IMG/VR virus record: IMGVR_UViG_3300019758_000008 | Location: 1 to 36,561 of that record | Direction: 5' to 3' (one strand) | Source of the DNA: a virus | DNA: 36,561 nucleotides | Program-made: the position numbers and the translations under genes | The notes under the pieces: model-generated | What the model saw: the letters and a program-made list of their open reading frames with translations, nothing else | Database searches by the model: none | Told to the model about the DNA's origin: nothing | In this document: in pieces, positions 2,987 through 36,561 of the stretch | Layout of the letters: each line of letters starts with the position of its first letter | How positions within the stretch are numbered: position 1 is the first letter of the stretch

Positions 2987-3466
2987 ATGAGCAAATTTGA
3001 TGATTTAAGCAAGCAAATTTTTAAAGATAATAAATTCTTAATGCAAACTAGTCAAGATTTCTATGATACTGTTGAAGATGAAATTACTATTGATGATGAT
3101 GGAACAGAAGTAATTACTAGAACCAAAGAAGAGCTTATTGAAGAATTTAAAAAGGGGATAGAAGGAAAAGGTTTTGCAGAGATAGACGGTCAAGTAATAA
3201 TTCATAAAATAGTTTTAAGTAAATTGTTAAATAAAACTAAGTACAATAAATTAAAGGAATTTGTTGCAACAGATCCAAGAATGTTCTTGATGAATGATTT
3301 TTTAATTGAAAGATTTGAAAAACTATTTGATTCTATCTTTGAAGAAGTTGTTTTTGATGGCAATGAAATGGATATGGTAATGCTTGATTTAAGAGATATG
3401 TTAAGAATTAGTGTTGTTTATATAACCATTTTTGAAGCAAGAATGAAAGAATTAAAAAAAAAATAA
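2987..3466 (+). CDS. Tail assembly chaperone, short form (lambda gpG-like)
   Basis: A 159-residue acidic helical protein between the tail tube and tape measure genes. It ends in Lys-Lys-Lys-stop encoded by a run of ten A residues (3454-3463). Behind it, a second open frame without any usable start runs up to the tape measure gene. This is the classic G/GT arrangement, where the short form and a frameshifted fusion together chaperone tape measure assembly. The assignment rests on gene order and the slippery run rather than on sequence similarity. Confidence 0.75.
   Translation: MSKFDDLSKQIFKDNKFLMQTSQDFYDTVEDEITIDDDGTEVITRTKEELIEEFKKGIEGKGFAEIDGQVIIHKIVLSKLLNKTKYNKLKEFVATDPRMFLMNDFLIERFEKLFDSIFEEVVFDGNEMDMVMLDLRDMLRISVVYITIFEARMKELKKK
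3454..3463 (+). promoter_or_regulatory. A10 slippery site for -1 frameshift in the tail chaperone
   Basis: Ten A residues in the phase TTA AAA AAA AAA TAA. Each A AAA AAA heptamer fits the rule for tandem slippage by one base back. After the slip, translation enters the frame beginning at 3463 and stays open to 3807. I saw no clear stimulatory stem-loop close downstream, so the long homopolymer may be enough, or the structure is one I missed. Confidence 0.72.
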
Positions 3467-3807
3467 CAATAATACGCAGAGTCTTTACAGAAAAAATACT
3501 ACAAAATAGATATTCAGATTGCATAAATAAGCAATGCTCTGAGCATAAGTTTAGGGCTTGCCCTTTCTCTAAAAATAAGAATGATGAAAACTTTTTTAAT
3601 GTTGTTGATAACATAGAAGGAACTGATATAATTATTCCTTGTGCAATCGTTACAGTTTTAGAGAATCCAGAATTATGGAATTTTTGGGTGGATTATTCTT
3701 ATAAAGAAATTAAAGAAGATTTAGACGAAATGGATATAGTACAATCTTATATTATTAGATATTTCAAGCAAGATATTGAATTAAGCAAAGAATTAAAAAA
3801 TTCTTAA
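3463..3807 (+). CDS. Tail assembly chaperone, frameshift extension (gpT-like part)
   Basis: An open frame of 114 codons with no start codon or ribosome site at its beginning, in the -1 frame relative to the chaperone gene. The fused product would have about 273 residues. The extension has four Cys in its first half (DCINKQC, then RACPF) and an aromatic stretch WNFWVDYSY near residue 75. It stops 13 bases before the tape measure start. The fusion is expected to be the minor form that contacts the tape measure and tube proteins. A minus-strand frame in this region is a shadow. Confidence 0.72.
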   Translation: MTIIRRVFTEKILQNRYSDCINKQCSEHKFRACPFSKNKNDENFFNVVDNIEGTDIIIPCAIVTVLENPELWNFWVDYSYKEIKEDLDEMDIVQSYIIRYFKQDIELSKELKNS

Positions 3808-3820
3808 TTAGGAGTTAATT

Positions 3821-5659
3821 ATGGCTACAGAAATAGAACTAGTTGTAACGGCAACATCAAACATAGACAAGAAGATGGCAGAGGCCGAAAAGTCTGTTAA
3901 AAAAGTAGAAACACAAACTGAGAAATCGACTAAAAACATGGAAAGCAAATGGAAAGGGCTTGGCAATGTAATACAAGGCGTAATGGGCTCTATGATTATA
4001 AAGCAGGGTTCAGAGCTTATTAAGAGCTCAGAAAGGCAATCTATAGCTTTAGAAATTTTAAAAGTTAAATCTAAAGATGTTTACAATCAGTTGCAAGAAA
4101 CAAGTGATGCAACTTTTGGACTTGCTAATAAATTTGACATGGTCACAGCTGCAAATAAAGCAATGGCTTTTGGGATAAATTTAAGCGGAGGAAGATTAAA
4201 AGATTTAATGAAAATATCCTCAAAGCTAGCTTTAGTAATGGGGATCGAAACAAAGCAAGCCTTTGACGACTTAATTACATCTTCAGCAAGACAGCAAAAA
4301 TTAATCGCTGATAACCTGGGTGTTATGATTGATAAGGTTGCAGTAGATGAAGCATATGCGGAACAGTTAGGCAAAACAAGGATTGAATTAACAGAGATGG
4401 AGCAATCTCAAGCTTTCCTAAATGAGATATTAAAAAAAGGTGCTGTTATTACGGGCGATATAACAGATGAGTTTGTTAAAATGAATACACAGGGAACAAA
4501 AGCTATAAAAACACTTGAAACAGCATGGAGCACAACACTAAACACTATTGCAAAAGGCTTTGTTTGGTTTGGTACTCAAATAGGTGAAGAGTTTGCAAAA
4601 AAGCAAGGCTACAGAGTAAAAGATATTAGAGAAGGTGACAAGGAATACAAAGATTACTATGACAGATTAAAGAAGTTAGAGGAGGGAAGAAGTTCTGCTT
4701 ATCAACATATTCATAAACAATATATGCAGACGACAGAAAAAACAGTTATTCAAAATTATGACACATGGGTAAAATATTATAAAGCTAAAAAGCTACTCGA
4801 AAAAAGAGGCGTTGAAGATGATAAGAAGTTGCAAAAAGAAATACAAAGAAGAAATGAAGAGTTTGCAGATGATGGCGTTTGGGTAGATGGTCGAATTGTT
4901 AGCTCTACTTATATAGATACATCAATGAAAAGGATGAAGGAAATTACATCTAAAAACTTAAAAGAAACTAAGACTAAAAAAGGTAAGAAATCTAAATCAA
5001 ATGCAGGTACTGATATCATGGGGGGGCTTGTAGGACTTTGGGAAGATACTAAAGAGTTCGCAGATGAACAATATTATAAGGCTGCCTTATGGCAGGATGA
5101 TAAAATAAACACTGAAAAAGAGAGAATGATAAGAGCTGATACTGATTTAAGGTCTAGTTTATTTAATCAACAATTGTCATGGGAACAACAAGTTGAAAAA
5201 GCTGAAAAAGATTCTTTAAAAAGAAGAGAAGCTCAGTCTAAAAAATACTTTGGAATGATGCAAGGATACGGCTCTGAATACCTAAGCGCAATTATAACAG
5301 GACAACTTGATGCTATTCCACAAATACTTGCAAATCAAGCGATGATGTTTGGACAAGAGCTTTTTTGGGATGGTCTAAAGACATTATGGATGGGAACAGC
5401 ACAAAACGCCTTGTTTCCTGGAATTGGAGCAAGTGCAATGTCTGTTGGAGTTGCTGAAATGGGTATAGGAGCTGGATTAATGGCTGCTGGCGGAGTTGCT
5501 AGTAATGCAATGGCTTCTGCTCCTCCTCCTGCTTCTTCTGGCTCTAAAGAAAGAAATAACGAGAGTGCAGGAAATGGAACTATAAATATGAATGTAACAA
5601 CATCTCTATACGGCAGTAAAACACAAGCTAAAAAAGAATTGGTTAGAACTATGAGATAA
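3821..5659 (+). CDS. Tape measure protein
   Basis: A 612-residue protein after the tail chaperone. The N-terminus is helical and Lys/Glu-rich with coiled-coil character (residues about 15-45). A Lys-rich linker (KKGKKSKS) follows near residue 390. The C-terminal part has hydrophobic Gly/Ala-rich stretches (GIGAGLMAAGGVASNAMA) that look membrane-active, as is common in tape measures. By the usual scaling of about 0.15 nm per residue, the tail would be roughly 90 nm, so this is a short siphovirus tail. No peptidase or lysozyme domain is evident. Confidence 0.8.
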   Translation: MATEIELVVTATSNIDKKMAEAEKSVKKVETQTEKSTKNMESKWKGLGNVIQGVMGSMIIKQGSELIKSSERQSIALEILKVKSKDVYNQLQETSDATFGLANKFDMVTAANKAMAFGINLSGGRLKDLMKISSKLALVMGIETKQAFDDLITSSARQQKLIADNLGVMIDKVAVDEAYAEQLGKTRIELTEMEQSQAFLNEILKKGAVITGDITDEFVKMNTQGTKAIKTLETAWSTTLNTIAKGFVWFGTQIGEEFAKKQGYRVKDIREGDKEYKDYYDRLKKLEEGRSSAYQHIHKQYMQTTEKTVIQNYDTWVKYYKAKKLLEKRGVEDDKKLQKEIQRRNEEFADDGVWVDGRIVSSTYIDTSMKRMKEITSKNLKETKTKKGKKSKSNAGTDIMGGLVGLWEDTKEFADEQYYKAALWQDDKINTEKERMIRADTDLRSSLFNQQLSWEQQVEKAEKDSLKRREAQSKKYFGMMQGYGSEYLSAIITGQLDAIPQILANQAMMFGQELFWDGLKTLWMGTAQNALFPGIGASAMSVGVAEMGIGAGLMAAGGVASNAMASAPPPASSGSKERNNESAGNGTINMNVTTSLYGSKTQAKKELVRTMR

Positions 5660-5709: not shown

Positions 5710-6411
5710 ATGGAATTAAGAAATATAATTGCTATATCACAGAAAAAATATGCAACAACGGGCAATATTTGGAATGTTGCAGGCTCTCCAACGGCTGGGG
5801 ATGGAGTAGCAAGAACGGCTAAGGAATGGTTTGATTACCTTAACACGGATACAGGGGCAACTATTGTTGGATTATCTTCTTCTACATATGCGGAATTTAA
5901 TAGATTTTATGTAGGCGGAACAATAGAATTTTTAGATTCTACCATCGCAATGATGCTAGGTTATGAAACATCTGTTGTTTACCCTGCTAGTACTTTTAAT
6001 ACTGCTGAAAAATGGGGTTCTTCTAAATTAGTAATTCAAAATAGTTATAATGCTCCACCTCTTGCAAATTCAATCCTTACAAGTTTTGAAGAAACATCTG
6101 TAGATTTTGCAAATAATACTACTATACTAAAAGGATTTGCTCCGATATCTGATTATGAAAACGATGATGATAGGGAAGGGTATTTGTGCAAAGTTAGTTA
6201 TTTTCCTGCATCAAGAAGGAATGATTTAAAGCTGTTCTTGTATGAAAATGGGCACAATGTAGCTGAAGATTTAATAATTTACGGCTTAGAGTTTAAGATA
6301 GATAACACATTACTTTTAAATTTAGACTTGAGTAAATATTCAGGTGTTTCAGAAAACATTTCAAACAAGAATTTAAAGAAGTTTGAAATTGGTTTCATAG
6401 TGAGTGTGTAA
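5710..6411 (+). CDS. Distal tail protein candidate
   Basis: A 233-residue protein starting behind AGGAGGG and directly after a promoter. It follows the tape measure gene, where siphoviruses place the distal tail (Dit) protein. I see no diagnostic motif; the sequence alternates short strands and aromatic residues, consistent with a beta-sandwich. Its stop overlaps the next start (TAATG), so the two are probably translationally coupled. The Dit assignment comes from position and size only. Confidence 0.55.
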   Translation: MELRNIIAISQKKYATTGNIWNVAGSPTAGDGVARTAKEWFDYLNTDTGATIVGLSSSTYAEFNRFYVGGTIEFLDSTIAMMLGYETSVVYPASTFNTAEKWGSSKLVIQNSYNAPPLANSILTSFEETSVDFANNTTILKGFAPISDYENDDDREGYLCKVSYFPASRRNDLKLFLYENGHNVAEDLIIYGLEFKIDNTLLLNLDLSKYSGVSENISNKNLKKFEIGFIVSV

Positions 6412-8075
6412 TGAAATATATTCAAATTGCGGGTTTTATGCCTGCTAAGATAAAAGCACCTAAAGAATTAAAATTTGTCGCTAGTCCTTCTATAGATATT
6501 GAAAAGATGGAAGCTGAAGAAATAACAGGTTTTGATTTTACTATGTCAAACACTGTTTTTGATAAATTCTATCAAACTGATGATTATGAAGTAATGGTTA
6601 CAGATGATTTAAGCACTACCGATACCGTAATAGCAGTTGATGATTCTAGTTATTTTACTGTAAATGATTATGTTTGGCTGAAAAGTGAAGTTATCAAGAT
6701 TGTTTCTATTAATACATCTACGCAAATAACAGTTTTAAGAGGACAATATAATACTTTTGCTCAAAAATATACTGTCAATACAGATACAGAGCAATATTAT
6801 TACATAAGAAAATATCCTAAAACTTTCATAGGTCAAAGGGTTTTTCTGTATGAAAATAATAAATTGTTAAGTATTGGGTTAATTAAAGAGCAACCTGTTT
6901 TTAATAATTCCTTATTAAGTTTTAACTGTGTAAATGCAATAGAGTCTTTAGATGTAGATTGGACAATTCCAGCAAGCTCAGATTTAACAGGGTTAGCGGC
7001 TGCAAATACAGGAGATGAAAGAGCTGAAGCAATTAGTGTACTTAATTTAAATAAGGCTTTCGGAGTAAATAAAGACTCTAGTTTTGCTTACGAGATGCCT
7101 CCAATAATGGATTATATGAGGATTCCTTTATCAGAAAACTTAATGCAAGGATCTTCACTATCAACATGGATTTTTTTAAATGATTTAGGTACTTTACTAG
7201 AGTATTTAAACTTGTACGGAAAGGTTAATGCTTCAGTTTTTACATGGGATTACACAGAGGAAGTTTATACTTTTATGAATATATCAGATGTTACAACATT
7301 GGATACTGTAACGAATGTAACACTAGCATCATATAAGGATATAACAAAAAGCTATTCTTCTCAAGCTTATACTGGAATATCTCAAATATCTGTTAAGTTG
7401 TGGAATACAGTAATAAATATAAATAATACCAATACCTCTCAGTTTGCAAATAAAGATGTCTTTGAAATAGATTTAAGTAAAATATATGGTGTCAAGCCTA
7501 GCGATATAAATAGCATTATTTTTTATTATATTAGATTGTTTTCTATAATTTACAGTGAATTAACGATTCCAACTCATGCAATTAAATTTCAAGATTTCAC
7601 AGAAGGTTTCTTTTATAACATACTGGATATAGACAAGTTTTATACTTTTCAAGATGTATCTTCAAGAGCCTTTTGTTTGTCTAAAGATGAAAATAATATA
7701 AAATTTCTTATTACTAGAGAAGTTGAAAAAAACATGATTTCCCCCGCTTTAACTGGCAGTATAGTAGCTACAAATCAATTTGAGCATGACAATACTATTC
7801 AAGATTTTCTTGAAACTACTGAAGATAATGTTGAAGATGCTGAAATCGCAAGATATAATTATAAATATTTTGAAGTTGGCGACAAGGTAATGTTTGTCAA
7901 AGATAATGGGACGAAAACAGCAGGATTGACAATTACAAGTATAGCATCAAACACGATAACCGTTTCGCCTTCTTCGCTTACTATAAGTGATACAGGCTAT
8001 TTCACTTTTGATAATTATAGTGTTTGTAATGCTAGACAAAAATTATATTTCTTCTTAAATGTTAATAATTGGTAG
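6411..8075 (+). CDS. Tail hub / baseplate protein candidate
   Basis: A 554-residue protein coupled to the previous gene. Residues about 65-120 (YFTVNDYVWLKSEVIKI) and about 480-540 (YFEVGDKVMFVKDNG) look like two copies of a small beta module found in several virion proteins here. The middle is rich in aromatics and Asn. Position after the Dit candidate suggests the tail hub or tail-associated protein (gp27/Tal-like). No catalytic motif is visible, so a hydrolase role is not supported. Confidence 0.5.
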   Translation: MKYIQIAGFMPAKIKAPKELKFVASPSIDIEKMEAEEITGFDFTMSNTVFDKFYQTDDYEVMVTDDLSTTDTVIAVDDSSYFTVNDYVWLKSEVIKIVSINTSTQITVLRGQYNTFAQKYTVNTDTEQYYYIRKYPKTFIGQRVFLYENNKLLSIGLIKEQPVFNNSLLSFNCVNAIESLDVDWTIPASSDLTGLAAANTGDERAEAISVLNLNKAFGVNKDSSFAYEMPPIMDYMRIPLSENLMQGSSLSTWIFLNDLGTLLEYLNLYGKVNASVFTWDYTEEVYTFMNISDVTTLDTVTNVTLASYKDITKSYSSQAYTGISQISVKLWNTVININNTNTSQFANKDVFEIDLSKIYGVKPSDINSIIFYYIRLFSIIYSELTIPTHAIKFQDFTEGFFYNILDIDKFYTFQDVSSRAFCLSKDENNIKFLITREVEKNMISPALTGSIVATNQFEHDNTIQDFLETTEDNVEDAEIARYNYKYFEVGDKVMFVKDNGTKTAGLTITSIASNTITVSPSSLTISDTGYFTFDNYSVCNARQKLYFFLNVNNW

Positions 8076-8081
8076 GTAAAA

Positions 8082-9239
8082 ATGTTAAGAACTGGATTAA
8101 AAAGTGGCAACTTAGCTGATTTTAGATATTTAAACATGATTGCTAAAACAGCGGAACAAATATCTAATGTGAATATATGCTCTAAAATATTAGGTCTGTC
8201 TGATGCAGGGGGAACAGATACTGCAAATTATATTTATCATACCCAAATTAGAGATAGAATAACTTTAGTTTCTGTTTATGTTTCATCTTCAAGCCTATCA
8301 AGCCCCTCTTATCCTTCTATAAGCACAGCAGTTGACGAAAACGGAACTTCTTTAATTGGTAGTTATAATTTCATAAGTGCTGTATTAGAAGAGTTTGATC
8401 ATGTTGTAGATGGTATAACCTATAAAGTTACTTTTCTTAAAAAAACTTATGCGGTTGCAATTGCTGCATTGAACAAAAGAGTTAGATTAAAAATATATCC
8501 TTTAAGTTCTAGTGCTAAGGATTTTGATGCAACTTACTTAAATTCTATGTTTATAATGCAGATTGATAGCAGTTTAACAGGCATTACTTTAGCAGAAGAT
8601 GAGGTTGTTGCAAGTTATGAGTACATAAACAAAATGAAAGAGGCGTTTAGGTTAAACATGAGCTATAATCTTGCTGTTATTGATACTTTGGGAAACAAAC
8701 AGTTAAATTATAGTATTTTAAATTATCTTAATGTCTATAATGATTTATATGAAGTATTATCTTTAACAGGAGAAAGGGCATATATTGGATATGAGGGTGC
8801 TACTAGCTTCGAGACAGGCACTGCAATAATTTGGGATTTATTCTTGCAGTCAACTATCACAGCAGGAACTTTATTGGATTATACGATTTTTACACAAACC
8901 CAAACTAATATTAATAAACTTCTAGATAGATATTATCTTGATACAAGAATTGCAAATGGATTATCTTTAACTACTACAGATACTTTAAACAAATCCATCA
9001 ATTCTATATATCAAGACGCTTTAAACTCTTATGATTTAGTTATGCTGAATAGAGATTTTGCAAATAGGTTACAAGGAAAATTGTATTATCCAACTATTGG
9101 TAGGGCATTAGTCACAGAAGGAAACCCCGAAACGCCTATTGACTTAGATATAATTATGAACAACAATATAGATAATATGAACTTTAGTCATGAATTAACT
9201 TTAATAAATGGCTATAAGTTAAAGTTTTCTATTTCCTAG
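8082..9239 (+). CDS. Tail protein of unknown role
   Basis: A 385-residue protein six bases behind the hub candidate, with a weak GGTAGGT site. The N-terminal half has beta-like Ser/Thr/Val segments; the second half is helical and Tyr/Leu/Asn-rich. I do not recognise a family. Because it is locked into the tail operon and precedes the fibre region, it is probably a baseplate or tail-tip component. Confidence 0.5.
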   Translation: MLRTGLKSGNLADFRYLNMIAKTAEQISNVNICSKILGLSDAGGTDTANYIYHTQIRDRITLVSVYVSSSSLSSPSYPSISTAVDENGTSLIGSYNFISAVLEEFDHVVDGITYKVTFLKKTYAVAIAALNKRVRLKIYPLSSSAKDFDATYLNSMFIMQIDSSLTGITLAEDEVVASYEYINKMKEAFRLNMSYNLAVIDTLGNKQLNYSILNYLNVYNDLYEVLSLTGERAYIGYEGATSFETGTAIIWDLFLQSTITAGTLLDYTIFTQTQTNINKLLDRYYLDTRIANGLSLTTTDTLNKSINSIYQDALNSYDLVMLNRDFANRLQGKLYYPTIGRALVTEGNPETPIDLDIIMNNNIDNMNFSHELTLINGYKLKFSIS

Positions 9240-9250
9240 AAGGAGTAATT

Positions 9251-9550
9251 ATGAAATATTTACTAATCTTGATAAGTGTATTTTTAATGTTTGGGTGCTA
9301 TGAAGAAGAGCAGGTGACCACAAACCAATTGCTCGTTAATCAGTGCGATGATAATAGTGATTGTATTGATAATGATTTTCCCTTATGTGTTTTGACAAAT
9401 GATTTAGATAATAAAACGGAAAGATATGAATGTGTTCCTTATAACTGTTTTGGATGGGGAGGCGGTGCAACAGGGGATGGAAATCCGATTGTATCATATT
9501 CAAGAGATTTACAAGGTAATTGCTCAAAACATATAATTGATGAAAACTAA
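9251..9550 (+). CDS. Small Cys-rich lipoprotein
   Basis: A 99-residue protein behind AAGGAG. The N-terminus MKYLLILISVFLMFGCYEE is a type II signal sequence: a Lys, a hydrophobic core, then a lipobox-like MFGC with Cys16 as the lipidated residue. The mature part has six more Cys (including DDNSDC, FPLC, YECVPYNC), enough for three disulfides, so it should act outside the cytoplasm. Phage lipoproteins made from tail regions often block superinfection or DNA injection; that role is inference. It could also assist lysis. The minus-strand frame here is a shadow. Confidence 0.7.
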   Translation: MKYLLILISVFLMFGCYEEEQVTTNQLLVNQCDDNSDCIDNDFPLCVLTNDLDNKTERYECVPYNCFGWGGGATGDGNPIVSYSRDLQGNCSKHIIDEN

Positions 9551-9564
9551 TAAATCCAATAATC

Positions 9565-9593
9565 TTGACAAATTTAATTAATAAAGTTATAAA
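9565..9593 (+). promoter_or_regulatory. Strong promoter for the 175-residue virion protein
   Basis: TTGACA (9565-9570) and TATAAA (9588-9593) with a 17-base spacer. It lies in the 76-base gap behind the lipoprotein gene. The following gene has a TTAGGAGG site, so high expression is expected. Confidence 0.75.
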
Positions 9594-9626
9594 TAATCAG
9601 TCTTTAATTATTTCTTAGGAGGAAAT

Positions 9627-10154
9627 ATGTCAATTATAAAAACTACAGGCTCAAAACAAGTTGAGTTTTTACAAGCAAATTATAACGGAAGAATGCTGTC
9701 TTTAAAATCAGTTGGAGGATCATGTCATTATGTTCCTGTTTCAGATTCTAGTTTATTAGCTGGAATTACAGCAATTAGAACAGCAGAAGCAACAGTTACA
9801 GTTTCAGATATGGTAGAAGCTGCAAGTGGTGTTATTACTTATACTGTAGCAGATTCAAGTTTATTCAGAGTTGGCGAGTCTATCCCCGTTTTACAATCTT
9901 CCGTTCAAGTTGGAGCAATTACAGTTAAGTCTTTAGCAAGTGCAACAACTATAACAGCTAATCAGTCAAATGGTTCAAGTTATACACCTGCTGATGATGA
10001 TGACTTATTATTAAGAGAAGATGAATTTATTGCAGAAGATGATAGTAATAAATTTGCAAGTAATCAATATAAATACCTAGTTCTTCAGTCAGAATCTTCA
10101 TCTGTTAAGTTAGTAGTAGAATTATTAGGTACGGGTCTAGTAAAAAAGTATTAA
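9627..10154 (+). CDS. Abundant virion protein, short form of a frameshifted fibre
   Basis: A 175-residue protein with its own strong promoter and an AGGAGG site. It is beta-rich in Val, Ser, Thr and Ala. Residues about 70-125 (LFRVGESIPVLQ, then TTITANQSNG) resemble a module found in the tail tube and hub proteins. It ends Val-Lys-Lys-Tyr-stop, where the two Lys codons form part of A AAA AAG. The frame that follows is open but lacks a good start. I infer that most ribosomes stop here to give the abundant short form, while some shift to make a long fibre. It could be a decoration or fibre-base protein. Confidence 0.65.
   Translation: MSIIKTTGSKQVEFLQANYNGRMLSLKSVGGSCHYVPVSDSSLLAGITAIRTAEATVTVSDMVEAASGVITYTVADSSLFRVGESIPVLQSSVQVGAITVKSLASATTITANQSNGSSYTPADDDDLLLREDEFIAEDDSNKFASNQYKYLVLQSESSSVKLVVELLGTGLVKKY
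10142..10148 (+). promoter_or_regulatory. A AAA AAG slippery heptamer
   Basis: In the zero frame the codons read GTA AAA AAG TAT TAA, so the heptamer is in the exact phase needed for -1 slippage of two Lys tRNAs, as in E. coli dnaX. Six bases later a large stem-loop begins. The zero-frame stop lies two codons beyond the slip site. Confidence 0.78.
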
Positions 10155-11650
10155 GCCGAGCAAAGATTTTTCCTAAATGCTTACCTTCTCAAGAAGACCT
10201 TGAGGCTGTGTATTTAGGAAAAGTTGCCCCTTCCTCGGCGGGGGTGGTCTATGATGAAAGTGGAAATAGTAATGATGCACAGCTGGTTAATTCTTATGCT
10301 ATGCAAGGAGATGGGGTTGTATATGCTGAAGCAGGTAACGCAGCAGTTCATGATGGCTTAAATTTTACAGGTGCTATAATTTGGTATAACAATGATACAA
10401 TAGGCTCTCTAGGTGGTAAATTTTTAGCTTCAGTAGGAAATAAAGAGTTGACTTGGTATCAAAGTACTATTACTAATTTAAAATTATTCTATAGTGGGGA
10501 TGGCATAACAGAATCTGTTGCTAATTTTGCTATTATTTCCGGGTGGAATACACTTGAATATGAGTTTAATAATGGTGTTTTTAGTTACATATTAAACGGA
10601 GTTTCTAGTTCTCTAACTTTAGCATATACTAGCATAAATACAGGGGCGGCTAATCTTAGTTTATTCGCTCAAACGGGTGGTATTGCAAAGTTTAGTGGCA
10701 AAATAGCTTATTTTAAATATGGAAATGCAGAGTTTAATCTTTGCAATGGTGGCTTAATAGAAGCTATCCCCAACACTGGAACTGCTGGAGGCGACGCAAC
10801 ATTATTTAACGCAACTTATCCAACTTTATGGGCTTTACAAGATGTTTTCCATTACAATTTCCTAAACGGTTTTGACCTCTACGAAAATGGAAATGTAGCT
10901 GAAGAAATCAGAGTTCCTATCGGTCATACATTTTCTCAAGTAGGTTATACTTTAACTTCTAGCAATCTAGCAGGGATTTGGCATAATGGAGCAGAAACAG
11001 AGATAGAATTTCCTGCTACCCTTTCTTCTGTACAAGATGTTACTCCTATAAGTAGTTTAACAAATAATAAATATTTGGAATTCATAAATGGAAGTGTTAA
11101 GGAAGCTACTAATCAGGTAAATGTATTTGAGGTGGTCAATGGAGCTAGATTTTTCGCAGCAGCTGGATCAACATCTTATTTATGGTTTAATAATGCAGAA
11201 GCTATAGCTGGAAGAACTTATAACTACTATTTAGAGGTTATCGGGACAACTAGTTCTATATATTTAACACTAGGAAATATTAATTTTGGTTCTTTTTCTA
11301 ATGGAATATATACTGGTTCTTTAACTCCAACCGTAGATGGCAATATAAGACTAGCTAGAAATACTTCTCCAGTTGATTTAATAGTTTCTAAACTCTATGT
11401 TTGGGAAGCAGACACAGTTCCACCTCTAAGCTACGAGGAAATGGAGTCTAATTATAATGGTGCTGATATAGTATTTAGCAACACAGAAGAGAATAAGAAG
11501 AAGAAGATAGTTGCTTATGACAGTGCAAGAACAACAGACGAAATGATAACAATTCAAAAATGCATAGATGCAAAAACAGGAATTGATGTATTAAATGATG
11601 AAAATGGCCCTGTTTATAGTGTAGAGGGGTTACTAGTCTTAATTCCATAA
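10148..11650 (+). CDS. Frameshift extension: LamG-like tail fibre / adhesin part
   Basis: An open frame of 500 codons in the -1 frame. Fused to the first 174 residues of the upstream gene it would make about 674 residues. The first possible start is GTG at 10208, with GAGG only a few bases away, so independent initiation looks poor; codons before it already read as ordinary protein. Early residues include YDESGNSNDAQLVNS, typical of LamG/concanavalin-like jelly-roll domains, followed by repeated Gly/Asn/Ser/Tyr-rich strands. A sugar-binding fibre or adhesin is likely. The C-terminal 60 residues (EENKKKKIVAYDS) are more charged, perhaps a cap domain. Confidence 0.65.
   Translation, partial: VLSRAKIFPKCLPSQEDLEAVYLGKVAPSSAGVVYDESGNSNDAQLVNSYAMQGDGVVYAEAGNAAVHDGLNFTGAIIWYNNDTIGSLGGKFLASVGNKELTWYQSTITNLKLFYSGDGITESVANFAIISGWNTLEYEFNNGVFSYILNGVSSSLTLAYTSINTGAANLSLFAQTGGIAKFSGKIAYFKYGNAEFNLCNGGLIEAIPNTGTAGGDATLFNATYPTLWALQDVFHYNFLNGFDLYENGNVAEEIRVPIGHTFSQVGYTLTSSNLAGIWHNGAETEIEFPATLSSVQDVTPISSLTNNKYLEFINGSVKEATNQVNVFEVVNGARFFAAAGSTSYLWFNNAEAIAGRTYNYYLEVIGTTSSIYLTLGNINFGSFSNGIYTGSLTPTVDGNIRLARNTSPVDLIVSKLYVWEADTVPPLSYEEMESNYNGADIVFSNTEENKKKKIVAYDSARTTDEMITIQKCIDAKTGIDVLNDENGPVYSVEGLLVLIP
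10155..10239 (+). promoter_or_regulatory. Nested stem-loop, probable frameshift stimulator
   Basis: Three nested helices are visible. The outer one pairs GCCGAG (10155-10160) with CTCGGC (10234-10239). The middle one pairs TTTTCCTAAAT (10168-10178) with ATTTAGGAAAA (10212-10222) and extends by an A-T and two G-U pairs. The inner one pairs CTCAAG (10188-10193) with CTTGAG (10199-10204) around a five-base loop. The outer helix starts six bases after the slippery heptamer, the usual spacing for a stimulator. Confidence 0.75.
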
Positions 11651-18299: not shown

Positions 18300-18881
18300 T
18301 TATAATTTACTTAGTTTACTTTCTAGCGTAGAGATAAAAGCCCTTCTTTCTCTTACTTCTTCCAATTTATTCATATTCAAGAACCCTAGCAACTCAACAA
18401 CTACTTTTTGTTTATCCTTGCTATCAGCAATAAAAGTAACTTGTTTTCTAAAATTTTCATCATTTGGCTCAGTTTGAGAAATCTTTTCTTCCTTCTCAAT
18501 CTTCTCACTTCTTTTTTCAGTCCCCTGACTTTGTTGTTTAATTGCATTTTGCACCTCATCAGCACTTGCTACAGATGTATCAATTCCTATTCCAAAATTA
18601 CCTAAACATCGACCCCATGCAGATGTTTCACAATTTTCGATATAAGATGTCTTATTAATAAAAGTGCTTCCCTCCTTCTCATACGCCAAGCCATTAGCAA
18701 CTTCAACGCCTTCAGCATTAATCAGTCTAGCTTTAATGATACATACGCCATCATCAAGCCTTACTATCTCACTTAAAAGTTGATACCCCTTGAAGTTTTC
18801 TCTTAAGTACTTTATGCGAGCGTTAACCTCAACATATTCCTTGCCTTTGATGTTTGTTGTTTTCATTTTCTTATCGTTCAT
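18300..18881 (-). CDS. Putative single-strand annealing protein (ERF/Rad52-like)
   Basis: I start at ATG 18881 behind AAAGGAGAG (193 residues); an upstream extension to 19019 would read through the promoter. The first 110 residues include VEVNARIKYLRENFKGY and then YIENCETSAWGRCLGNFGIG near 82-101. The ETSA-x-GR-x-LG pattern is shared by many phage recombination proteins next to SSB genes. The C-terminal half has a Lys/Glu linker and a short helical domain. Role inferred: pairing single strands for recombination and genome concatemer formation. The family name is my best guess. Confidence 0.6.
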   Translation of the reverse strand: MNDKKMKTTNIKGKEYVEVNARIKYLRENFKGYQLLSEIVRLDDGVCIIKARLINAEGVEVANGLAYEKEGSTFINKTSYIENCETSAWGRCLGNFGIGIDTSVASADEVQNAIKQQSQGTEKRSEKIEKEEKISQTEPNDENFRKQVTFIADSKDKQKVVVELLGFLNMNKLEEVRERRAFISTLESKLSKL

Positions 18882-18925
18882 TTTCTCTCCTTTTAAGATC
18901 AAGCCCATCTCAATCATATATCCAT

Positions 18926-18953
18926 AGTATAATGAATTAATTTTAAAAGTCAA
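18926..18953 (-). promoter_or_regulatory. Divergent promoter, minus side (annealing protein and SSB)
   Basis: Minus-strand TTGACT (18953-18948), 16-base spacer, TATACT (18931-18926). The -35 lies in one arm of a 14-bp inverted repeat whose other arm carries the plus-strand -35. Confidence 0.68.
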
Positions 18954-20357: not shown

Positions 20358-21002
20358 ATGAATGATAGATTGAATAAGATAGCAATATTAGTAAATAAGA
20401 CTTTTATGCTTTTGGGAAAAAAGCCAAATGACTTGATGGCTGAAGCATATGCAGAAGAAATAGCCGAGTATAATATACCTATTGTTCCAAAAGATGTTAG
20501 AAAGTATGTTATTTCTAATCACAAAGGCTTTGATTATCCCTCTGTTACATTGTTTTTGGATTCACTAGGAATTATATCCGAATCAGAAAAACTCGCAACA
20601 GCGTGCGATTTTGCTTGGAAAAATTTAGAACCAAGATTGCCTCGTTTGGTTAGAAGTTATAATTATTGGTCTAAAGACAAATATCTCCTTTATGCTCTTA
20701 ATAGAATTGGCATAGAAAGAATTGCAGGAGCTCAAGAAGTAGTAGATATGTACACTAATAAAATAAATAATTGGGAGCTTAAAGCAATCAAAGAAGATTT
20801 TTATAAATATTATGCTGAAGCTTTAAAGAAAAATCTGACCTTGGAGCTTGTAAAGGGTACAGGTACTTTAAAAAATGAAATAGAAGCACCTAAACCAAAT
20901 CAAGCTCTTTTAGGGTCGAATTCGACCCCTTTAAAAGCTTTAGATGAGGACGTGAAGAGAATAGGGGAAAATGTAATGGAAATAATTGAAGGGAGAAAAT
21001 AA
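20358..21002 (+). CDS. Possible helicase loader
   Basis: A 214-residue protein behind AAGGAG, just after the initiator. The first 70 residues (LNKIAILVNKTFMLLGKKPN, then DVRKYVISN and FDYPSVTLFLDSLG) have the helical plan of the G39P / lambda P-type loaders' N-terminal domains. There is no Walker A motif, so it is not a DnaC/DnaI-like ATPase. The remainder is helical (KYLLYALNRIGIERI). The loader role is inferred from this general layout and position, and is not certain. The stop overlaps the next start. Confidence 0.45.
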   Translation: MNDRLNKIAILVNKTFMLLGKKPNDLMAEAYAEEIAEYNIPIVPKDVRKYVISNHKGFDYPSVTLFLDSLGIISESEKLATACDFAWKNLEPRLPRLVRSYNYWSKDKYLLYALNRIGIERIAGAQEVVDMYTNKINNWELKAIKEDFYKYYAEALKKNLTLELVKGTGTLKNEIEAPKPNQALLGSNSTPLKALDEDVKRIGENVMEIIEGRK

Positions 21003-26087: not shown

Positions 26088-26116
26088 TTGACAAATGTTA
26101 AATAGTATGTTATACT
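26088..26116 (+). promoter_or_regulatory. Strong promoter for the 96-residue protein
   Basis: TTGACA (26088-26093), 17-base spacer, TATACT (26111-26116). The RNA should begin near 26123, just before a hairpin AGTGAG (26128-26133) with CTCACT (26143-26148). Confidence 0.78.
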
Positions 26117-36141: not shown

Positions 36142-36561
36142 ATGTCAGCTGCTACAGGCTTTACACAAGAACAACTTACACATTTTCAAAAATTCGTGCA
36201 ACATTTAGTTTTAAAATTTGGTATTACTGGTAATTTGCCTTTAAATGCTTTCTTAAATAAAATCAGAATGATTCATGGTTCACCTGCTGTTAACAGTGAT
36301 GAAACAAGAACACAAAGATTTTTTGTTGAAGTATCTACGGGAACAGTTGCAGCAGTTAGTGCAGCTGGAGCATATACAGGAACTGACTTTTCAGCATCTG
36401 TAACACAATATGAAAACCTTGTAACAATCGCTCAACAGGGTGCAACTTATAGTTTAGCAGAAAGAAATATTGCTAAATTGACTCATTTTATTGGCAGTAT
36501 TGATACAAGTGCTTCAGGAATCAAGAACGCAGCAATTAGATTTATCAATGAAGGTTATGGA
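36142..36561 (+). CDS. Major capsid protein, N-terminal part (continues at 1-687)
   Basis: ATG 36142 behind TGGAGG opens a frame that runs off the window end and continues exactly at base 1. This part codes residues 1-140; the last 41 of these are the same as the first 41 codons of the window. The N-terminus (MSAATGFTQEQLTHFQKFV) is helical, and the following segment has Thr/Ala/Val strands, as in HK97-fold subunits. It has its own promoter and a strong ribosome site, fitting the most abundant virion protein. Confidence 0.8.
   Translation, partial: MSAATGFTQEQLTHFQKFVQHLVLKFGITGNLPLNAFLNKIRMIHGSPAVNSDETRTQRFFVEVSTGTVAAVSAAGAYTGTDFSASVTQYENLVTIAQQGATYSLAERNIAKLTHFIGSIDTSASGIKNAAIRFINEGYG
36439..36561. 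repeat. Terminal overlap, copy 2 (identical to 1-123)
   Basis: Exact repeat of the window start, inside the capsid gene. It shows that the molecule closes on itself. Confidence 0.93.

Follow-up and report, generated by a model that had tools for sequence, protein, structure and literature searches.

The heptamer A AAA AAG followed by a downstream stem-loop is the −1 frameshift signal of E. coli dnaX (PMC5009743), and related devices are found in phages, which use −1 or +1 frameshifting to add Ig-like/FN3 domains to some copies of their capsid or tail-tube proteins, as in Lactobacillus A2, T3, Listeria A118/A500/PSA and SPP1, where gp17.1* is made at 3:1 (PMC5009743, PMC9022992, PMC8718954). 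A further example comes from Orsay virus, an RNA virus of nematodes, whose CP-delta, presumably made by frameshifting at a stem-loop, is carried as a head fibre (PMC7565637), with free delta made too. Phages such as lambda also have the G/GT arrangement, in which ribosomes shift into the −1 frame close to the 3′ end of a late gene (Xu et al. 2004, as cited in PMC5506516 and PMC7230728); the G/GT products are absent from the virion.

The locus that we describe here lies in a window of 36,561 bases that takes in all of the viral record IMGVR_UViG_3300019758_000008 (31% GC), and very probably represents a known kind of trick, used on an unusually large extension. It shares heptamer and stem-loop with dnaX; however, the frameshift in dnaX makes the short product and here would make the long one, and where dnaX has a clear 5′ Shine-Dalgarno stimulator, we find a weak 5′ AGG and a three-tier fold of 85 nt. 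Frameshifting towards the long product has been described in a few other bacteria. As in the Ig/FN3 systems, we propose that some copies of a putative structural protein bear an extension at the C-terminus, but those systems place an Ig-fold domain on a known capsid or tail-tube protein, whilst here 500 residues would follow a 175-residue protein, and no Ig-like profile in Pfam matches the extension at E≤10. The pairing of a capsid protein with a large fibre in Orsay virus is similar to what we propose here, although the two show no homology. The G/GT pair likewise involves a −1 slip in the last part of a phage late gene, but its genomic position and product are unlike those of our locus. In a limited search of the open-access literature, we found no described frameshift that fuses so large a fibre to a small phage protein.

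A slippery heptamer between two reading frames

We consider it very probable that a dnaX-type −1 programmed ribosomal frameshift joins the ORF starting at 9627 to the −1 frame that overlaps its end. Most ribosomes translating this ORF would stop at the TAA at 10152, yielding a 175-aa protein, whilst a fraction would be delayed on meeting the 85-nt nested stem-loop, which begins six bases past the heptamer. In these, the tRNA-Lys on A AAA AAG would re-pair one base back and the ribosome would read a further 500 codons in the −1 frame. The result would be a 674-aa protein with Leu-Val-Lys-Lys-Val-Leu-Ser-Arg at the fusion junction. The extension could then be a fibre or adhesin, present on a minority of the subunits of a multi-copy virion protein. 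Slippage itself, its efficiency and the presence of both forms in the virion are what we infer from the elements below, all of which lie on the plus strand:

9565–9593, +, promoter-like sequence TTGACA-17-TATAAA, matching 11/12 consensus positions, upstream of the short ORF
9617–9622 (approximate), +, Shine-Dalgarno sequence AGGAGG for the ATG at 9627
9627–10154, +, zero-frame ORF of 175 aa, with coding signal in the zero frame up to the slip
10127–10129, +, weak Shine-Dalgarno-like AGG, 12 nt upstream of the slip
10142–10148, +, slippery heptamer A AAA AAG, in phase, as in E. coli dnaX (PMC5009743)
10148–11650, +, −1 frame of 500 codons beginning VLSRAKIFPK, the extension of the putative 674-aa fusion
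10152–10154, +, zero-frame stop TAA
10155–10239, +, predicted nested stem-loop of 85 nt with three helices, starting 6 nt past the heptamer
10155–10160/10234–10239, +, outer helix, 6 GC-rich pairs (GCCGAG/CUCGGC)
10165–10180/10210–10225, +, middle helix, 16 uninterrupted pairs
10187–10193/10199–10205, +, inner helix, 7 pairs
10208–10210, +, GTG, the sole early in-frame start of the −1 frame, with no usable Shine-Dalgarno sequence, within the fold at the foot of the 3′ arm of the 16-bp helix
11662–12900, +, next gene after the −1 frame, 412 aa, with its own strong Shine-Dalgarno sequence

The heptamer, its phase, the stop, the overlap, the structure, the coding frame and the absence of a start can all be read from the sequence. 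The zero frame ends GTA AAA AAG TAT TAA, and the original prediction was right in each of its claims here: read in the frame of the short ORF, the heptamer splits exactly as X XXY YYZ, the stop stands two codons past it, and 500 codons of the −1 frame are free of stops. The −1 frame has its nearest upstream stop at 10106–10108 and is open from 10109 to 11650; it shares just 46 nt with the zero frame, and it is within this overlap that the slip falls. Among the 143 in-phase XXXYYYZ heptamers in the ORFs used, the 10142 site ranks first both for downstream stability (−35.1 over the following 90 nt, against −28.9 for the runner-up) and for the length of the −1 frame that it opens (500 codons, the next being 134 and 133, at ordinary gene overlaps). 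In E. coli, A_AAA_AAG is far more shift-prone than the heptamers tested alongside it (PMC5009743), with the proviso that the tRNA-Lys of the host of this phage may differ in shiftiness. One could speculate that the AGG at 10127–10129 acts as a 5′ stimulator. Such a Shine-Dalgarno element is not obligatory for dnaX-type −1 frameshifting.

A predicted downstream RNA structure beyond coding needs

The minimum free energy structure of 10149–10245 is precisely the nested three-helix fold that had been foreseen, at −35.1 kcal/mol. Its nesting, its 6-nt spacer and the six pairs of its outer helix are as first described, but the middle helix has 16 pairs rather than 11–14, and the inner one 7 rather than 6. 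The spacer is inside the 5–9 nt usual for such structures (PMC5009743). When the −1 frame was recoded synonymously with its own codon pool, the recodings gave −20.5 ± 3.8 and only 5 of 2000 were predicted to fold as stably (z −3.8), and dinucleotide shuffles gave z −3.1 to −3.3. The structure thus exceeds both what the peptide requires and what chance would provide. At the sampling used, no other perfect helix in the genome reaches the 16 bp of this one. When both strands were scanned in 91-nt windows (14,588 in all), equal stability was attained at the slip site and one other place only. That other place lies at 20931–20841 on the minus strand (near 20821–20836 on the plus strand), inside the ORF 20358–21002. 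The outer helix is the part most sensitive to context: with the segment extended to 10260, its probability is ~0.22, as a GCCCC/GGGGG pairing between the C run at 10227–10230 and the G run at 10240 competes with it, whereas the 16-bp and 7-bp helices keep probabilities of at least 0.96 in their cores. A search of Rfam returned no match.

Where the reading frame changes, and alternative explanations

The 20 codons between the slip and the GTG (10148–10207) score +5.8 nats in the −1 frame under a codon-usage model trained on the other long genes of the phage, against −12.2 when read in the former zero frame and −13.2 for the remaining frame, a score not wholly independent of the fold, as the same bases make the RNA structure. 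Real 20-codon windows average 8.0 ± 3.4 nats, which places +5.8 at the 25th percentile, and this value is attained by 0.09% of out-of-frame windows and 1% of stop-free ones. On account of this codon usage, we place the switch of coding frame at the slip rather than at GTG 10208. Were the downstream ORF instead a separate gene, with GTG 10208 or some other weak site as its start and perhaps translated by ribosomes that re-initiate past the TAA ending at 10154, it could point to an in-frame GTG with a GAGG just upstream, and to several genes of this phage that have a weak Shine-Dalgarno sequence and overlap their neighbour. However, this GAGG (10202–10205) sits 2 nt from the GTG, bearing out the poor spacing already remarked upon, and the anti-Shine-Dalgarno energy there is −1.6 kcal/mol, against a genome median of −7.35; the GTG is moreover buried in the stable stem-loop, behind bases that are already coding in the −1 frame. 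None of the other early −1-frame starts has a Shine-Dalgarno sequence or is much better than this GTG, and the 53 nt that separate it from the stop are far for re-initiation. A separate gene would also leave both the heptamer and the 16-bp helix unexplained; we regard it as very unlikely.

Two further explanations concern the A-run itself. With seven A, whether in a real strain variant or as the true sequence behind a sequencing or assembly error, the locus would be a single gene of 675 codons; the frame break does sit at a homopolymer, and the peptide encoded with seven A would be no different from the frameshift product. Yet the genes contain 124 A/T runs of at least 6, with no other unexplained broken gene besides the one of tail-chaperone type, and an exceptional stem-loop at the correct spacing would have no explanation, which makes this reading very unlikely in our estimation. 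Alternatively, RNA polymerase could add an A and produce a fusion mRNA, as the A-run and the AT-rich genome might allow, and as the A10 run of the tail-chaperone gene could also do. Such transcriptional slippage has no need of a downstream RNA structure, and six A are short for efficient polymerase slippage; we find it extremely unlikely. A programmed −1 ribosomal frameshift remains the reading that we favour, because of the switch of frame, the lack of an internal ribosome site, the excess of structure and the presence of a slippery site that outranks all others in the genome, and it is further supported by a second, classical −1 site in the same phage.

This second site is found where ORF 2987–3466 ends in an A10 run (3454–3463). 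From there, a −1 frame runs to 3806 with a coding signal of +32.6 nats and no listed start, directly before the tape measure gene at 3821, and on its sequence 3454–3806 reads as a classical G/GT tail-chaperone −1 frameshift. Since the phage has its own G/GT site, the slip at 10142 is additional, rather than a misplaced standard phage frameshift.

Genomic context and expression of the short ORF

The first 123 bases of the record are identical to the last (1–123 and 36439–36561), and it is because of these identical ends that we take the genome to be complete, and circularly closed or permuted; the capsid gene is split by the record ends. Gene order identifies a tailed phage:

29811, small terminase (PHROG match)
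30268, large terminase (TerL, 570 aa), assigned by gene order, without a profile match
31973, portal, assigned by gene order, without a profile match
36142–687, across the record junction, capsid protein, inferred from gene order
1805–2965, tail tube, inferred from gene order
2987, tail chaperone
3821, tape measure
5710–9239, tail proteins, followed by the slip gene pair and then by 11662

Other recognised genes encode a Phage_rep_org_N replisome organiser, an SSB, an M15 peptidase and a ParB-methyltransferase, and there is a marginal KilA-N match. A small ORF (9251–9550), which follows the tail genes and precedes the slip gene, has a lipoprotein-like signal (LMFGC), and its product is possibly a superinfection-exclusion lipoprotein.

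Promoter-like sites of the class found before the short ORF, with 11/12 matches, number 8 on the plus strand, against 1.9 expected, and others of the class precede the capsid gene (36041) and the small ORF 24313 (24254). Further plus-strand sites stand at 26088 and 13207. The anti-Shine-Dalgarno duplex of the short ORF reaches −9.6 kcal/mol, again above the strength of the −7.35 median. From this promoter and ribosome site, strong expression of the 175-aa form is plausible. The original prediction had made a promoter-driven 175-residue protein the major product; the promoter and Shine-Dalgarno sequence are indeed present, and abundance is a plausible reading of just two features, the capsid-like promoter and the strong ribosome site. 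The long form would presumably be the minor product; dnaX-like signals can attain about 50% frameshifting.

Possible roles of the two products

The location after the tail genes, the strong promoter and the long extension together suggest that the 175-aa product is a multi-copy virion protein, a fraction of which carries a receptor- or surface-binding fibre. The base protein does not appear to be the major capsid or tail-tube protein, its ORF being distinct from both of these inferred genes. We posit, tentatively and with somewhat less than even confidence, that frameshifting sets the number of fibres per virion, a purpose-built 85-nt three-tier stimulator placing a 500-residue adhesin on a minority of the copies of a small, abundant virion protein, as a phage counterpart of the Orsay CP-delta. 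Internal tests thus uphold the −1 frameshift of the original prediction, whilst the virion role, the fibre nature and the LamG domain that it proposed found no sequence match in Pfam, PHROG or PDB. By eye only, we noticed a YDESGNSNDA motif in the extension. A match to ENFP1 begins precisely where the slip is, but at E=7 against the full database we took it for chance, and AlphaFold, run without an alignment, gave unusable models (pLDDT 30–32).

Neither the 175-aa protein, nor the −1 frame protein, nor the fused query has a significant relative in 50,697 phage records, in which TerL, the portal, the tail protein at 6411 and DnaD were also without a significant match. A peptide-pattern search of IMG/VR with both frames, the 570-aa TerL and pieces of its motifs, the capsid protein and the junction peptide found no relatives; nor did the tape measure find any in plasmids, or TerL in GTDB contigs or ~1,100 sampled genomes.

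Gene callers would split this locus into two genes and give the second a false start, thereby missing the tether of a fibre-like protein to a strongly expressed small one. If our reading is true, frameshift-made virion decoration would extend beyond single Ig domains to an entire fibre, almost threefold longer than its carrier, and this phage lineage, which has no known relatives, would provide a naturally occurring means of display at a fixed ratio.

Neighbouring genes with relatives elsewhere

The 11662 product has five relatives in IMG/VR, 35–42% identical, on contigs (L093–L097) that have no other protein in common with the phage over the stretches compared. In L094, the relative makes up the C-terminal half of a fibre-like protein of 816 aa, and in L096 and L097 it adjoins, on the downstream side, a probable capsid gene. 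The 11662 protein thus reads, from these sequences, as a mobile module, and its context fits an adsorption or surface-decoration locus without proving one. Upstream of the relatives, nothing convincingly resembles either frame, the one weak match (L095, E ~0.001) being repetitive.

The recombination-type protein encoded on the minus strand at 18300–18938 (PHROG 11717) has many relatives, but their records are without the structural genes of this phage. This protein is common to Lactobacillus delbrueckii and Pelagibacter phages and to hundreds of environmental viral contigs.
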